Below, piece by piece: positions 4,839 through 56,724 of a stretch of DNA of 57,528 nucleotides. The position numbers and the translations under genes are program-made. This stretch comes from a virus, in IMG/VR virus record IMGVR_UViG_3300027746_000023, positions 1-57,528 of that record; one strand, given 5' to 3'. The notes under the pieces were generated by a model, which was given only the letters and a program-made list of their open reading frames with translations, was not told the origin of the DNA and did not search any database. Every line of letters begins with the position of its first letter. Position 1 is the first letter of the stretch.

Positions 4839-6316
4839 GGTTGTGGCGTGGGTGTGGTGATTTCTTGCGGGGATGAGGGATCGACCGACGCTGTGTCGGG
4901 CGTGTGGAGCTTGTTCGGGAAGACCTCTTCAATCTCTAGGCCGAGGGCTTCGCATTTCTGTTTGCGGCGGACGTAGGTCTGAATGACATCCTCCTCCTCC
5001 TCCTCCGCGCGGAGTCCCTGCATGTTGTAAAAGCGCGTGGGCGAAAGATGCCCCTTGTCGAGTTGCTCGCTGTAGGCGCGGGCATCGCGGCCGCTGTCCA
5101 CGGTGATCTTGCGCGGGGCAAGCCATTCGTGGCGCCACCAGTCGTCACCGGGGTAATCCAATCGCCCGGCTTGGATCTCATGCCAGAGCCAGTATTTGTA
5201 GAAAGGGCGGCAAAACTGATCGATGACCATCTGCTGAAGCCGCTCGAGGAAGTTCTGTGTGACTTCCAAAACGGCGCGTTGCTCGGTGCCTGCCAATCCG
5301 ACATTCACCATCATGGCTTCTGGCGGCAAACCGATGGCGAAGGCGACATCCGATCGGAGGGCGCGCATCACGGCTTCGTAGGTCTGGCCAGGGATGTCGT
5401 TCTTAAAGGCTTCCAGCTTTTCGCCTGGCTTGAGGCGGGGAAGGAGGATGCCGTTCGGAAGGTCGGTGGTCTGGAGGTCGCCGACTTCGTTGGTGGTGGA
5501 TTTCAGTCCAGCACCGAGGCCGATCTTGGCGACTTCGGTGCTGGTCACCATGTAGCCAATCTGCGCACCTGCCTTGTATGCGCCTTTGACGAAGCCGTTT
5601 ATTTCCGAAATGTCGCGCAGGTGGGAGACTGCGGAGTGAAGCCACGAGACGCCGCGAGGCTGTCCGTGCCGGCGGATGTGCCGCATGTGCAGCACTTGGT
5701 CGGCGGATATATCTTTGCCGCCGATCGTGTAGGCTGCGGGCGCGCCGAATTGATCGAGGCGCACGCCGTCGTGCGTGAAGTCGTCTGTGTTGCCAAAGCT
5801 GGCAGATCCGCCGATGGCTTCGCCGCCGATGAAGCGCACACGGGCGGCATCTTCCTTTGTCTTTAAAAATTGCGCGAAGAAGTCGCCGTCGATGGCGACC
5901 TGTCTGAGAATGAGAGATTGCGCGGTGTAAAAATTAACCTGTGCGCCAGCATCAAAGGCCCATGCCTCGGCGCAGTTTCGATCCTCGAAATACTGATCGA
6001 CTTTCTTGTTCCACGCGGCGTTTGCTGTCTTCGGCTGAACCACAATGCCGGTGCCGATGGCGCGTTGTGCCAAGTGCTCAACGATGTATGTGGCCTGCGG
6101 CGCGTTGTTGTAGAGCCAGCGCGAGAGGCGCAGGATTTCCATGCGCGTGTAGGCCGTGAGTTCGCGCTTGGGGTCGGTGGTCGGCACCCATACAAGGCCG
6201 CGATTTAGCGAGGGTTGCGCGGCTTCAAATGCCGCTGCTTTGGCGTCGAGCTTGCGCGGGCGACCAGCTCCGGGGCGAGTTCCGCCCCAACTTGATTTTT
6301 TGATTTTTGACGGCAC
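4835..6316 (-). CDS. Portal protein, lambda family, 493 aa
   Basis: It forms the dodecameric DNA entry vertex. The Lys/Arg/Gly-rich start (SWGGTRPGAGRPRK), the RWLYNNAPQATYIVEHL helix, HVRRHG-type loop and QMVIDQFCRPFYKYWLWHEIQAGRL segment are shared with phage B's portal at 43519-44964 and are typical of lambda gpB-type portals. The start is GTG at 6316, 13 nt after TTTGACA. It overlaps the protease start (ATGA) and is preceded by the gpW-position gene. Confidence 0.85.
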   Translation of the reverse strand: MPSKIKKSSWGGTRPGAGRPRKLDAKAAAFEAAQPSLNRGLVWVPTTDPKRELTAYTRMEILRLSRWLYNNAPQATYIVEHLAQRAIGTGIVVQPKTANAAWNKKVDQYFEDRNCAEAWAFDAGAQVNFYTAQSLILRQVAIDGDFFAQFLKTKEDAARVRFIGGEAIGGSASFGNTDDFTHDGVRLDQFGAPAAYTIGGKDISADQVLHMRHIRRHGQPRGVSWLHSAVSHLRDISEINGFVKGAYKAGAQIGYMVTSTEVAKIGLGAGLKSTTNEVGDLQTTDLPNGILLPRLKPGEKLEAFKNDIPGQTYEAVMRALRSDVAFAIGLPPEAMMVNVGLAGTEQRAVLEVTQNFLERLQQMVIDQFCRPFYKYWLWHEIQAGRLDYPGDDWWRHEWLAPRKITVDSGRDARAYSEQLDKGHLSPTRFYNMQGLRAEEEEEDVIQTYVRRKQKCEALGLEIEEVFPNKLHTPDTASVDPSSPQEITTPTPQP

Positions 6317-17042: not shown

Positions 17043-17083
17043 TCTTAGATATTGGTTTTTTGTGTTTTGTGATTTTTTGCATT

Positions 17084-17403
17084 GGTAAACTGCGGCACCC
17101 CGTAAGATGCCGTGTGTTTGCCATGCCCCGCCAAGCCGCGCCCCGCCTAGCCACGCCCCGCCGGGCCTGGCCGCGCCGCGCCGCGCCAAGGCAAACTTCT
17201 GCACCTCCAAAGAGATGCAGTGTGTTTGCCAAGCCTCGCCGCGCCATGCCTTGCCCCGCCGCGCCTTGCCATGCCTCGCCAAGCCGTGTCGAGCAAACTT
17301 CTGCACCTCCGAAGAGATGCAGTGTGTTTGCCATGCCGCGCCGTGCCTTGCCACGCCTCGCCTTGCCATGCCTCGCCGCGCCCCGCCGCGCCTCGCCGCG
17401 CCA
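17084..17403 (-). repeat. GCCNN pentanucleotide array with three covarying hairpins
   Basis: On the plus strand the block reads hairpin (17084-17122), about 14 GCCNN units, hairpin (17190-17230), about 12 units, hairpin (17293-17331), about 15 units. Each unit keeps GCC and varies the last two bases freely. The hairpin stems pair GGCAAAC with GTTTGCC and CTGCA with TGCAG; in the first copy the inner stem is CGGCA/TGCCG and the outer is GGTAAAC/GTTTGCC, so base pairing is kept by compensatory change. The 5-base period rules out a conserved reading frame. It lies between 17411-17971 and the 17042 start. Confidence 0.85.
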
Positions 17404-21800: not shown

Positions 21801-21953
21801 TTAACGCTCCAAGGAGACATGCGTGGCCTGCACGCGGTGCTTGATGAAAAACTTGGTTCGGGCGTCGCCGAACCCGGATGCTTCGACCATCCAGCGGATG
21901 GGTCCGGTGAGGCGGCAGTAGCCCTCGCAGAGGTAGAGGCGGGCGGGCTTCAT
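21801..21953 (-). CDS. Conserved early protein, 50 aa
   Basis: MKPARLYLCEG ... IRWMVEASGFGDARTKFFIKH ... QATHVS aligns along its length with phage B 55667-55822 (MKRPRPYLCEG ... GFGDAKTIFFKTHG ... QATHIT). This shared frame confirms it as a real gene. Function unknown. Confidence 0.75.
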   Translation of the reverse strand: MKPARLYLCEGYCRLTGPIRWMVEASGFGDARTKFFIKHRVQATHVSLER

Positions 21954-22153
21954 TTGGCTGGCCTCCGGTTCGAGGTCGCACCGATCTGGTCGCTCATCCA
22001 GTTCTGGAATGACGCCTGAAAAATCCGCCAGCCGCCTTTATTTGCGAGCGGCTTGCAGGCGGAGAAACTTCCGCGCCGAATGTGGCGAAGGATTGTTTCT
22101 TTATGCGCTCCGGTTTCCTCGGCGGCTTGGCGAACGGTCATCGTGCCTTTCAT
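21950..22153 (-). CDS. MerR/excisionase-type HTH protein, 67 aa
   Basis: TVRQAAEETGAHKETILRHIRRGSFSACKP is an excisionase-family helix-turn-helix, followed by GGWRIFQASFQNWM, the usual wing. It probably aids excision with the integrase at 22766-23791, or acts as an early regulator. It is ATGA-coupled to the ribbon-helix-helix gene. Confidence 0.75.
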   Translation of the reverse strand: MKGTMTVRQAAEETGAHKETILRHIRRGSFSACKPLANKGGWRIFQASFQNWMSDQIGATSNRRPAK

Positions 22154-22320
22154 TTCGACGCCCTCGTGTTGTTGTTTTTTTGCCGATCCATTTTTTCTTT
22201 CACGGCTTGAGCGATGATCCGGGAGACCGGCATCCGGCCTTCCGCTGCGGCTGTCTGCTTCAGCCAATTTAGCATGTCGCTCGGCATACTGACGCTTGTT
22301 TTTACGAATGCGTTTTGCAT
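22150..22320 (-). CDS. Ribbon-helix-helix regulator, 56 aa
   Basis: VKTSVSMPSDMLNWLKQTAAAEGRMPVSRIIAQAVKEKM is a typical RHH (CopG/Arc) fold. It is divergent from a second RHH-type gene at 22480, with dyads between them, so the pair resembles a lysis-lysogeny switch. The phage B counterpart is 56024-56200. Confidence 0.75.
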   Translation of the reverse strand: MQNAFVKTSVSMPSDMLNWLKQTAAAEGRMPVSRIIAQAVKEKMDRQKNNNTRASK

Positions 22321-22479: not shown

Positions 22480-22737
22480 ATGAAATCAGATTCCTTGTGC
22501 AAAAAAGTCAGCGTTTCTTTGCCTGCAAAACTTCACGAATGGCTTATTCAAGAAGCCCAAAAAGAGAGCGAAAATAGAGGGTCAAGGTTGACCGTTTCCG
22601 CGCTGATTCAGGAAATCATTAATGATTGGAAAAAGGGAAAAGCGCAGAATGCCGCTGCCGATGTGTTGAAACCACACAAGCGTTCCGTTGGTGGGTCCTC
22701 AACAGCTACAACGGACGATTTCCGCAAGATTGGATAG
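22480..22737 (+). CDS. Ribbon-helix-helix repressor-like protein, 85 aa, with conserved -1 extension to 22769
   Basis: KKVSVSLPAKLHEWLIQEAQKESENRGSRLTVSALIQEIINDW is an RHH domain. The zero-frame tail is Ser/Thr-rich and ends at 22737. In the -1 frame, FRWWVLNSYNGRFPQDW continues to a stop at 22767-22769 and is conserved in phage B with synonymous changes, so that frame is translated. A frameshift near GGAAAAAGGG (22628-22637) or a separate TTG start at 22626 could express it. Probably a regulator of the divergent early genes. Confidence 0.7.
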   Translation: MKSDSLCKKVSVSLPAKLHEWLIQEAQKESENRGSRLTVSALIQEIINDWKKGKAQNAAADVLKPHKRSVGGSSTATTDDFRKIG

Positions 22738-22765
22738 CCAATATCCACGACCTAACAGAAGAACC

Positions 22766-23791
22766 CTAAACGGCCCACCACGCCCGCCAGTCCGCACGGC
22801 GCGATGGCACGGCGTAGACCCCTTTGACCATGGCCGTCGTCGAGTGTCCAAGCTGGTGAGCGGTCTTTCCCGCATCCTGCCCACGACCCAAATGATAAGT
22901 GGCGAACGAATGCCTCAGAGCGTTCTCTGGAAACTGCGACCACGGCACCTTGCCCGCCTCGTGCAGCCTCCTGATGAGCGCCTGGCGCTCTTGATAAATT
23001 CGCAGAGAGGCCGGTGGCAAAATCAAACCTGTCTTTTTATGGTCTTGAAAAAACGCCGCCCGCTTGGTCAGCGGCTCGGTGAAGTCCACGATGCGCTCCG
23101 GCATTCCGGTGGATTGTTTGGAAACCTCCCGCCTCACCTCGATCTCTCCCCGTGCCGCGTCAATATCTTCCCAGCGCATCCGCCGCACCTCGATGGACCG
23201 AAGCCCCGCAAATCCACCCAGTAGAAACCACGCTCGCAACTCGTCGCTCATCTCCTCGGCCAAGATCGTCGCCATCTCTGCCGCTGTGACGAGCGACCGC
23301 TTCGCCTCGGCCTTTGGCGGGCGAATCCTCCGCAGCGGATTCCGATCGATCAACTCCATATCGACGCACCACGCGAAGAACCCGCTCGCGTAGCGATGCC
23401 ACCCCGCCCGTGTCGTCGGTGATCCTTCGATGCCGTCAAACCACTTGCCCGCCTTTATCGGCGTCACATTGGCAACCGGACCGTTAAAAGCCTCCAGCAG
23501 CTTGCCGCAAACCCTCTCGACCTTTGATTTGTGCTCCTCCGAGGATTTGGCCTTTGTCGCAACATAATCCCTCAGCGCGGATCTCATAGAAAGCCCACCC
23601 TGATCCTTTTCCCGCAGTCCATCCGTTCCCGACTTCTGAAGAGTCTCCAAAAGCGAAGGCCCAGCCGCCCAAGCCTCCGCCTCCGTCGCAAAAAAACGCC
23701 TGATCCTGTTGCCCGAAACCGCCGCCGGAATCTCCAGCTTCCAAGTTCCGGGTCTAGATGCGTTGGGTGAGACAAAATATCGAGCCTTCAT
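22766..23791 (-). CDS. int: Tyrosine-type integrase of phage A, 341 aa
   Basis: N-terminal arm-binding and SAM-like domains precede the catalytic part: AGLRSIEVRRM (Arg near 200), NALRHSFATYH (His-x-x-Arg near 290) and the nucleophile Tyr326 in VKGVYAV. It integrates at the tRNA-Leu core in the adjacent attP. The start lies next to three GTTGCCCG arm repeats. Its stop overlaps the stop of the opposing -1-frame RHH extension. Confidence 0.9.
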   Translation of the reverse strand: MKARYFVSPNASRPGTWKLEIPAAVSGNRIRRFFATEAEAWAAGPSLLETLQKSGTDGLREKDQGGLSMRSALRDYVATKAKSSEEHKSKVERVCGKLLEAFNGPVANVTPIKAGKWFDGIEGSPTTRAGWHRYASGFFAWCVDMELIDRNPLRRIRPPKAEAKRSLVTAAEMATILAEEMSDELRAWFLLGGFAGLRSIEVRRMRWEDIDAARGEIEVRREVSKQSTGMPERIVDFTEPLTKRAAFFQDHKKTGLILPPASLRIYQERQALIRRLHEAGKVPWSQFPENALRHSFATYHLGRGQDAGKTAHQLGHSTTAMVKGVYAVPSRRADWRAWWAV

Positions 23792-38388: not shown

Positions 38389-38999
38389 TTATTCGTCGTC
38401 CTCGTCAATAGTTGGCAGCGAAGTCAAAAGCGAGGCGAGGTCGTGCTCGGCCGGGGCGGAGGGCTTGACGGTCCAGACGCCATGCGCGCGCAGGGCGGCG
38501 TGTTGGTAGGCCAGCGCGCGGTGCAGTGGAAGTTCCCATAGTATGTAGTGTTCGGGCCATGCGGTTTCTCGGGCCAGGGTGAAGACCATCGAGGCGGCCT
38601 GCCCTGGCTCAATTAGTTTGGGGGGATGTTTTCCTCTTTCTCTCCGGGCTTGGATTCGACGCTGAAGGATGCTGCGCTTACTTGCTCCCCGATTCGGTTC
38701 AGCTCGGCGCTGAGTTCACCCACTCGGGAGAGGTCGATCGAGAACATAAAAGCGTCGATGGCTTCATCCGATTTGCCTGTGTGCACGGCGCGCAGGACGT
38801 CGGCAATCGGTGCGCTTTGTAGCCAAGCGACGGCGGCGAGGTTGCGCATCTGGTCGGCCTCGGAGAGCGTCCCATCGATGGTAATCCCAAGGCGCTGCAT
38901 GAGGTGGAATGAGCCAATACTGAATGGCCGCATTTTTAGCCCGGCGACCTCAAGCATGTCGGGGCTGAGAAACATATAGTCGGATTTTGGGTCGATCAT
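38389..38999 (-). CDS. Predicted frameshifted tail chaperone gpG-T fusion
   Basis: The zero-frame gene ends EENIPPN-stop. A C CCC CCA heptamer at 38619-38625 (minus strand) is an ideal -1 slip site two codons before that stop. The -1 frame then reads KLIEPGQAAS into the downstream 66-residue frame at 38389-38589. Lambda and many siphophages make such G/GT products at a low ratio before the tape measure. The prediction rests on the slip site, frame and location. Confidence 0.7.
38613..38999 (-). CDS. Tail assembly chaperone (gpG-like), 128 aa
   Basis: Helical protein starting MIDPKSDYMFLSPDML, with PIADVLRAVHTGKSDEAIDAFMF, ending in a Glu-rich tail and the slippery site. It binds the tape measure during tail assembly, by analogy with gpG. 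ATGA-coupled to 38996-39496. Phage A's copy begins at base 343. Confidence 0.65.
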   Translation of the reverse strand: MIDPKSDYMFLSPDMLEVAGLKMRPFSIGSFHLMQRLGITIDGTLSEADQMRNLAAVAWLQSAPIADVLRAVHTGKSDEAIDAFMFSIDLSRVGELSAELNRIGEQVSAASFSVESKPGEKEENIPPN

Positions 39000-50901: not shown

Positions 50902-51067
50902 TGTGGGAGTCGTGTGGGAGTCTCCCGCAAGTGCTTCAAAATTAAGACATAAACTTGCCCTGTGGTGTAATGGTAAGAATCTCCAACCCGCGTAAATTGT
51001 TGATTTGCAGCAATAGACTGCATCATTTTGCAACATTTTTATAGACGCATGTGGGAGCATGTGGGAG
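50902..51067. other. attP of phage B
   Basis: TGTGGGAG occurs at 50902 and 50913 on one side and at 51050 and 51060 on the other, 10-11 bases apart in each pair, beside the integrase start. The middle contains TTGTTGATTTGCA ... ATAGACT, which resembles TTGTTGATTTACA ... TTAGACT next to the tRNA-Leu core of phage A. Uninterrupted arms point to attP. The exact core is undetermined. Confidence 0.65.
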
Positions 51068-51076
51068 TTTGCCGAT

Positions 51077-52111
51077 ATGGCACACTTGGTTCGCAGCGAG
51101 AAAACGCGCTTTTGGGTTTTGAGGTATCGAGACCTTGATTCTGGGCAGTGGAAGGAGAGGTCGACGAAGTGCGATGCCGACGATGCGAAGGCGACCCGCA
51201 GAGCGCAGCGCATGGCTGAGGAGGAGTCGCGCCGAGAGGCGCAGGTCGCGCCGACGGAGAAGGGGGATTTTGTGGCTTGGGTTCCTGAGTTCATAGAGAG
51301 GCACTACACGAATAAGAGGTCAGTGAAGCGGTATCGGCTCGCCTGGGCGCGGATCGTTGAGTGGCAGAGATTGCGGCGGGTCAGGCATCCGGCCTCCGTC
51401 CGCTTTGAGCATGTGCAGGATTTTTTGGACTGGCGCACGGCACAGGGCGCTTCAAAGAATACCGCCAGACTCGAGATCAAGTTTTTCTCCAGCATCATGC
51501 AGGAGGCCATGCGCCGTGAGTTGACTGAGAAAAATCCCCTCGCCCTGGCGAAGGTTCCCCGCAAGGCGGCGAAGGTAAAAAAGGAGCTCACTTCCGAGGA
51601 TTTCATTGCCGCGCGCGCCGCATTCACCGAGCGCAGCGGCGCACCGTGGATGCTCACGGCCTTCGAGATCTGCTCGCATCTCGGCTGCCGATTCTCCGAG
51701 GCCGAGCTTGGCCGCGATGCCGTGGATTTTGAGAAAAAGATGGTCACTCTCGTGGACTCCAAACGAGACGATACCGACCCACGCAAACGCTTTTGCGTCC
51801 CATTGCCCGACACCCTCGCCACGCATCTCAAGGGCGTCTTCGACAAGCGCGACCGCACCACCCCTCCACTCGACAAAAGCGGAGAGCACAACCGCCAGTT
51901 TAATAAAACTCTCAAGGCAGCCACCGGAGCCACCTCCCATTCATTACGCGTCTCATTCATTACTCGATGTCACAGAGCTGGGCTCAGCGAGTCGCAAGCG
52001 ATGCGGTTGACAAACCACTCCACTCGCCTCGTCCACCTGATTTATTCGCGTCTGAATTTTGCGGATGCTCAGGCGGCTGCGGCATTGGTGCCCCCGCCTG
52101 GCGGGCTATAA
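51077..52111 (+). CDS. int: Tyrosine-type integrase of phage B, 344 aa
   Basis: I prefer ATG 51077 (MAHLVRSEKTRFWVLRYRD), since ATG 51059 lies within an arm repeat. Catalytic residues: Arg in SHLGCRFSEAEL, His-x-x-Arg in SHSLRVSFITRCH, later His in LTNHSTR and Tyr323 in LIYSRL. Unlike in phage A, it points away from attP on the plus strand and its 3' end overlaps the opposing excisionase-like gene. Confidence 0.9.
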   Translation: MAHLVRSEKTRFWVLRYRDLDSGQWKERSTKCDADDAKATRRAQRMAEEESRREAQVAPTEKGDFVAWVPEFIERHYTNKRSVKRYRLAWARIVEWQRLRRVRHPASVRFEHVQDFLDWRTAQGASKNTARLEIKFFSSIMQEAMRRELTEKNPLALAKVPRKAAKVKKELTSEDFIAARAAFTERSGAPWMLTAFEICSHLGCRFSEAELGRDAVDFEKKMVTLVDSKRDDTDPRKRFCVPLPDTLATHLKGVFDKRDRTTPPLDKSGEHNRQFNKTLKAATGATSHSLRVSFITRCHRAGLSESQAMRLTNHSTRLVHLIYSRLNFADAQAAAALVPPPGGL

Positions 52112-56023: not shown

Positions 56024-56200
56024 TTAGGCGCGAGTGGAGACCAAGCCGTTGTCGCGGGCCTTTTCGGTATCGCGGGCGATGAGAAATTGGATATAGCTCG
56101 ATAGGCTGCGATGCTCTTGGGAAGCGCGTTCGCGGGCTTTCTCAAGCAACCAGGCTGGGATCGAAATCGACTTTTTGATCGTTGTGTTTTCGGTATTCAT
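56024..56200 (-). CDS. Ribbon-helix-helix regulator, 58 aa
   Basis: TIKKSISIPAWLLEKARERASQEHRSLSSYIQFLIAR is an RHH fold, counterpart of phage A 22150-22320. Its start codon lies at the edge of a perfect 11-bp dyad, suggesting autoregulation. Confidence 0.75.
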   Translation of the reverse strand: MNTENTTIKKSISIPAWLLEKARERASQEHRSLSSYIQFLIARDTEKARDNGLVSTRA

Positions 56201-56232
56201 TATTCCTACTTTTGCGCATTAGTAGGAATAAT
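56199..56232. promoter_or_regulatory. Perfect dyad operator of phage B switch
   Basis: ATTATTCCTAC and GTAGGAATAAT, 11-bp arms with a 12-nt spacer, overlap the start of the minus-strand RHH gene and lie before the plus-strand one (56304). A probable binding site for one of the two. Confidence 0.7.
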
Positions 56233-56303
56233 GCGGCATGGGGTCAATACCTTATTTCATCAAAAGTTGATTTTTTCTTACTTGGTGCGAAATATTCAGA
56301 AAT

Positions 56304-56687
56304 ATGCCAAAGAAAAAACCCGATTCAGAAAAAGCGAAAAAGGTGTCCGTATCTATTCCCAAGGCCGATTGGGAGCTTGTGGAAATGCGGTTGCTCGAGT
56401 GGAGATGCGGCCCGAGCGAATACATCCAGCGACTGATCCGCGACGATACTCAACCACTCTGGTTGGAAAAAAATGCGGCATCCATTTCTCCGTTAAAAAT
56501 AGCCGCCGAGACCCCGGAGAGCGTTGATCTGCCACAGGACAAAAATCAGGGAAAATACCAGACTGCCGCAGCGAAAAGGGCGGCAGAGCGTGCTGGTGTA
56601 AAGACTATCAGGCCATCGAAGAGTTCCGGTGGTTCGTCCTCAACTCCTACGACGGACCACTCCCTGAAAACTGGGTCGCAGAAGTGA
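56304..56687 (+). CDS. Ribbon-helix-helix-like repressor, 127 aa, with conserved -1 extension to 56713
   Basis: KKVSVSIPKADWELVEMRLLEWRCGPSEYIQRLI is an RHH-like domain, followed by a disordered linker. The -1 frame encodes FRWFVLNSYDGPLPENW up to a TAG at 56711-56713, matching phage A. It has no ATG, GTG or TTG in that frame after its upstream stop at 56525, so a frameshift near GCGAAAAGG is the likelier route of expression. Confidence 0.65.
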   Translation: MPKKKPDSEKAKKVSVSIPKADWELVEMRLLEWRCGPSEYIQRLIRDDTQPLWLEKNAASISPLKIAAETPESVDLPQDKNQGKYQTAAAKRAAERAGVKTIRPSKSSGGSSSTPTTDHSLKTGSQK

Positions 56688-56724
56688 TCGACCTCACAGA
56701 ACAGATCCAGTAGAGAAAATCGCC

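Follow-up and report, generated by a model that had tools for sequence, protein, structure and literature searches.

Why should a reading frame shifted by −1 be conserved behind a small phage regulatory gene? We addressed this question in a viral DNA record of 57,528 nucleotides (nt), IMG/VR IMGVR_UViG_3300027746_000023, which was analysed over its full length (here the window) and consists of two related phage segments, phage A (1-38.6 kb) and phage B (38657-57528). In phage A, a gene for a protein resembling ribbon-helix-helix (RHH) DNA-binding proteins is followed by a conserved −1-frame module, and phage B has a counterpart. We consider it likely, from comparison of the sequences, that a programmed −1 frameshift at the heptamer G_GGA_AAA yields two products from this one regulatory gene. 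The finding appears larger than first noted, in that a conserved frameshift-encoded tail seems to be carried by probable phage repressors. The features concerned are as follows.

22480-22737, + strand: zero-frame RHH-like open reading frame (ORF) of phage A, 85 amino acids (aa), protein start MKSDSLCKKVSVSLPAKLHEWL, predicted short product
22635-22641, + strand: slippery heptamer G_GGA_AAA of phage A in the RHH register, predicted −1 shift site
22641-22769 (including the stop), + strand: −1-frame tail of phage A, adding SAECRCRCVETTQAFRWWVLNSYNGRFPQDWIANIHDLTEEP (42 aa) after the shift
56304-56687, + strand: zero-frame head ORF of phage B, 127 aa, predicted short product
56549-56555, + strand: slippery heptamer G_GGA_AAA of phage B, with a hairpin beginning about 7 nt downstream
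56555-56713 (including the stop), + strand: −1-frame tail of phage B, 52 aa, ending CWCKDYQAIEEFRWFVLNSYDGPLPENWVAEVIDLTEQIQ

The fusion protein predicted for phage A consists of RHH residues 1-54 and the 42-aa tail; that of phage B has 84 plus 52 aa. No module copies beyond these two occur elsewhere in the window.

Coding pattern and distribution of the −1 frame

The two −1 peptides described in the earlier note are present, as ORFs at 22626-22769 (ending FRWWVLNSYNGRFPQDWIANIHDLTEEP) in phage A and 56528-56713 in phage B. The note had marked 22480-22769 as the conserved stretch; the tail is real, but the tail proper begins only after the slip. The module behind the phage A RHH ORF terminates in FRWWVLNSYNGRFPQDWIANIHDLTEE, and the zero-frame TAG of that ORF falls within it.

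With the phage A head as query, 11 viral loci were matched, 10 of which bear the module in the −1 frame; the phage B head found no relatives. The eleventh locus, L011, has an MKSDSL-type RHH head (5001-5200) with the module missing. An alignment of the −1 peptides retrieved 103 IMG/VR stretches, of which 80 were kept, and two contigs of metagenome-assembled genomes (MAGs), from Terrimicrobiaceae and Chthoniobacter. Two further profile scans brought the number of unique module sequences to 114, and in 111 a usable zero-frame ORF lies upstream. In every one of these 111 sequences, from IMG/VR contigs and Chthoniobacterales MAGs, the module is in the −1 frame relative to the head, and an in-frame fusion of head and module was not found among them. 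The encoded tail is about 40-50 aa long and has the motif CxC...FRxWxLNSYxxxLPxxWIxxIHDLT, for which nothing credible was found among Pfam, NCBIfam, PHROGs and PDB sequences. Among cellular genomes, 4 of 213 from the order carry the module, with no convincing further case in samples of phylum and class genomes; the module is absent from 50,697 GenBank phages and 72,556 plasmids. The copy in L100 has no RHH head and an ATG a little upstream, and is perhaps a remnant. One marginal match (G509, in L101; E 9.8e-4) looks unrelated and was rejected.

Across 37 non-redundant loci, the set used for entropy, for pN/pS (the ratio of nonsynonymous to synonymous differences per site) and for the register counts below, entropy at −1 codon positions 1, 2 and 3 was 0.79, 0.52 and 1.14. 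Over the 17-codon overlap, pN/pS was 0.62 in the −1 frame, lower than in the RHH frame (1.00) or the third frame (1.18), and over the 7 codons past the usual RHH-frame stop, where no frame overlaps, it was 0.27. The ratios are near saturation and the pairs are non-independent, so their ranking weighs more than their values. The −1 frame is thus supported as having a coding pattern across homologues, and a synonymous pattern in the zero frame instead was not seen. Protein-level selection had been proposed earlier from the differences between A and B; that conclusion was right, but the pair itself is thin evidence, with pN and pS nearly equal in the −1 and zero frames. We regard coding selection on the −1 frame as settled because the homologues, and not the A-B pair, separate the frames.

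The predicted slip site and the short-product stop

G_GGA_AAA is a canonical X_XXY_YYZ heptamer and stands in the RHH register before the module in A, B and most of the other sequences. GGGAAA, the commonest hexamer in the entire upstream stretch, occurs in the head register at 28 of the 37 loci (0.66 expected from dinucleotide shuffles) and in the other two registers at none. In the codon preceding it, which specifies Q, K, E, S, T, P or L, the third base is always G. A complete heptamer was found in 88 of the 111 sequences (75 GGGAAAA, 10 GGGAAAC, 2 GGGAAAT and 1 GGGAAAG), located 45-75 nt before the FR anchor in the subset of loci measured. In 21 of the 88, the −1 frame opens no more than 15 nt from the heptamer. 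As the 44 aligned heptamer loci had been picked for GGGAAA, their 100% conservation was left unused as evidence.

Of the routes suggested in the earlier note, frameshifting is the best supported, but not quite where it was placed: the conserved site and the A-rich GGAAAAAGGG overlap at the end of the latter only, and slippage at GGAAAAAGGG itself was rejected, as it is not the conserved site. Also discarded was an A_AAA_AAG run upstream in the heads of L009, L012, L013 and L015, from which a shift runs into a −1 stop. In support of a shift, a related heptamer, G_GGA_AAG, is highly shift-prone in Escherichia coli (reviewed in PMC5009743); the sites here are mostly G_GGA_AAA and the hosts are others; the slip sites of halovirus g-t genes include G_GGA_AAC and G_GGA_AAG (PMC5009743).

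The short product has a conserved end of its own. The RHH-frame TAG is at the same position in 91 of the 111 sequences, formed from the −1 codon that follows the conserved W. This post-W codon is ATA, GTA or TTA in 31 of the 37 loci, where the base after it is always G, compared with 7 of 177 other I, L or V codons of the module (CTA adds one case after W and eight elsewhere); ATA and GTA are rare in the genes of the window, where ATA makes up 7% of the codons for Ile and GTA 5% of those for Val. Given the conserved RHH-frame stop, two products are expected, and we infer that both endings are selected, with a short RHH protein and an RHH protein plus tail probably being made. In its conserved in-register heptamer and in coding selection on a −1 frame that mostly has no start of its own, the gene resembles −1 recoding genes.

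Exchanged heads and a possible lysogeny switch

The sequences upstream of the module fall into 8 blastp clusters, one of them being the headless copy. Phage A and L006 share 100% identity in the 150 nt upstream of the heptamer but 71% downstream of it; in L045 and L062 the downstream parts are 90% identical and the upstream parts unrelated; and L091 combines an L066-like head with an L077-like tail. Heads and tails have thus been exchanged, and the joint lies close to the predicted slip site.

The neighbours of the frameshift gene in the two phages include the following.

22150-22320, − strand: divergent RHH gene of phage A, 56 aa, first of the leftward operon, weak RHH matches; proposed partner in the switch
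21950-22153, − strand: HTH_17 protein of phage A, 67 aa, next in the leftward operon (PF12728, E 1.4e-8); excisionase-like, judged by position
22766-23791, − strand: tyrosine integrase of phage A, convergent with the RHH gene (PF00589, E 8.3e-10)
56024-56200, − strand: divergent RHH gene of phage B, 58 aa (RHH_5, E 8e-4, below the cut-off)
56198-56233, no strand: palindrome CATTATTCCTACTTTTGC/GCATTAGTAGGAATAATG of phage B, 18-nt arms, 89% complementary; candidate operator

In phage A, the stop of the integrase gene overlaps the tail-frame stop, and the leftward run that starts with the divergent RHH gene and the HTH_17 gene also includes an AAA_24 protein. The phage B palindrome spans the start of the divergent RHH gene; phage A has no palindrome as strong as this one. 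Of 36 loci examined with a profile, 31 have another small RHH gene in divergent orientation to the frameshift gene. The integrase gene neighbours the frameshift gene in many loci, with an early operon on the other side. A divergent pair of small DNA-binding genes, flanked by the early operon and the integrase gene, has the layout of a lysogeny switch, in which the frameshift gene most likely occupies the repressor position.

From this position and the conservation, the following mechanism can be proposed. Most ribosomes would stop at the zero-frame TAG and release a short RHH DNA-binding protein, and a minority would slip by −1 at G_GGA_AAA and join the RHH head to the conserved tail. The frameshift protein would be the lysogeny-side repressor of a divergent RHH/RHH switch. 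Its tail, present on part of the molecules, would be a shared contact module that alters what the repressor can hold, either a common partner or another RHH dimer. In its fullest form, the proposal is that frameshifting sets the dose of a universal tail, which connects to one shared partner, and that the heads, each with its own operator specificity, are swapped between phages at the slip site. This full version is tentative, and we think it rather unlikely to hold in every part.

Alternatives and known systems

Other accounts of the conserved frame must be weighed against frameshifting. The tail might be encoded by an overlapping gene in its own right, starting for example at the TTG (22626) that the earlier note offered as a second route in phage A. 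We consider this improbable: that TTG occurs in phage A and a few close relatives, and the −1 frame of L092 and L093 contains ATG codons, but the start is not conserved, 90 of the 111 sequences have no ATG, GTG or TTG in that frame ahead of the module, and the conservation of GGGAAA in the head register would go unexplained. If the stretch were instead a DNA or RNA element (an attachment site, an operator or a structured RNA), its −1 reading would be incidental. Its place beside the integrase gene in many loci would fit, as would the several contigs that terminate right past it, but the variation tracks −1 codon positions, the low pN/pS persists where no frame overlaps, no common fold was found and the spacing between heptamer and module changes in multiples of three, which makes such an element very improbable. 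A sequencing error or a chance frameshift mutation splitting one ORF is scarcely credible. Errors do often produce overlapping frames, but the same arrangement is shared by over 100 contigs of different metagenomes and by MAGs, both stops are conserved, and the in-register conservation already refutes error.

Several observations weigh against a programmed frameshift in an RHH gene. No general RNA structure was found downstream of the heptamer (mean z about 0 over 55-85 nt in pseudoknot-free folding), the hairpin about 7 nt downstream being found in B and L031 only, and no enrichment of Shine-Dalgarno-like sequences was found upstream. The phage A head has only a weak RHH_5 match (14.1 against a cut-off of 26); in addition, the phage B head has no Pfam match of its own and some heads have weak Arc-family matches only, while that of L039 passes Pfam RHH_1 (23.4 against 20.5 bits). 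Finally, 23 of the 111 sequences have no GGGAAAN though their module stays conserved. In these members the −1 frame may be reached where a single tRNA slips on A_AAA or C_CCC, or where RNA polymerase slips on runs of 7-8 A, and on the sequences at hand we rate the chances of this as even. Most of the QKSSSKPS group retain A_AAA in register; A-rich heptamers with runs of 7-8 A are present in L012, L013 and L040; and L232-L238 have C_CCC or C_CCT where their relatives L219 and L227 have GGGAAAC. On the other side, L014, L161 and L162 have none of these and no obvious slip site at the usual place.

A further alternative accepts the frameshift and takes the tail to be an oligomerisation domain, the ratio of the two forms setting the pairing of RHH dimers on DNA. 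Small RHH proteins bind as dimers, often needing further contacts, and the C-terminal part of phage P22 Mnt is an oligomerisation domain. One tail on many heads would suit a general linker, and the best-conserved tail positions are aromatic and hydrophobic. Yet the tail does not look like a coiled coil, and its conserved, surface-like NSY...LP..W...HDLT equally suits binding to a specific partner. We see this role as possible, without favouring it.

How does a frameshifted RHH gene compare with known systems? In the immI region of P22, Arc and Mnt are two RHH proteins in a phage control region, and Mnt has a C-terminal extension. The pair of RHH proteins with one extended at its C-terminus is shared with our loci, but the Mnt extension is in frame and involves no frameshift. 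Dual-frame or overlapping phage genes likewise draw two proteins from one DNA stretch; unlike them, the second frame here mostly has no start of its own and would depend on the slip site. Conserved phage frameshifting is best known from tail and head genes. In tail chaperones of the lambda gpG/gpGT type (PMC5009743), a slip site of the G_GGA_AAN type and a −1 shift add a domain to a minority of molecules, as predicted here, but the head in our loci is an RHH-like regulator beside the integrase and early genes, and its frame continues for about 30-40 codons past the slip site before stopping. Identity with a tail chaperone was rejected, as the gene does not sit between tail tube and tape measure genes.

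FseA (msi172-msi171) of ICEMlSym R7A resembles our case in that a mobile-element transcription regulator is produced from two frames by a conserved frameshift (PMC10359603), and its genes are routinely misannotated (PMC10359603). It differs in its +1 shift and its DUF6499 and DUF2285 domains, and about 39% of its homologues are single ORFs (PMC10359603), whereas here no in-frame fusion was found. With the −1 geometry, and no DUF6499 or DUF2285 match in Pfam or NCBIfam, identity with FseA was also rejected. The nearest precedent in a switch gene is cro of Lactobacillus phage A2, also a case of −1 frameshifting; unlike here, it was seen on decoding in E. coli and gives a product 12 aa shorter (PMC5009743), and it is apparently irrelevant in the natural host (PMC5009743). 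We found no earlier report in the open-licence literature of frameshifting linked in this way to RHH proteins or phage lysogeny.

If the proposed frameshift is real, a DNA-binding regulator would be subject to recoding throughout a large group of temperate phages with Chthoniobacterales hosts, most of them uncultured. It predicts a protein overlooked by ordinary gene calling in these genomes and a testable tie between recoding and the choice between lysis and lysogeny. Recombination near the recoding site would let heads change while the tail and the control of its dose remain.

With regard to the record itself, positions 1-300 and 38657-38956 are 98% identical, and two different integrase genes are present (22766-23791 and 51059-52111). 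The two segments may be prophages in tandem, or they may have been joined in assembly. Positions 17083-17388 contain three GC-rich repeats, each about 100 nt long, with units resembling TGCCNCGCC.

The DNA behind the module also shows recurrent features. Long runs of G, often followed by TAAC, were observed directly past the DLT motif in L007, L008, L009, L014, L018, L023-L027 and L083, and are not present in A and B. In several cases (L018, L020 and L062) the contig ends about 5-130 nt from the module. Directly behind the module, L039, L042, L056, L075, L079 and L089 have tandem repeats whose −1-frame reading is SHQPPATSHQPPA and whose copy number varies among loci.
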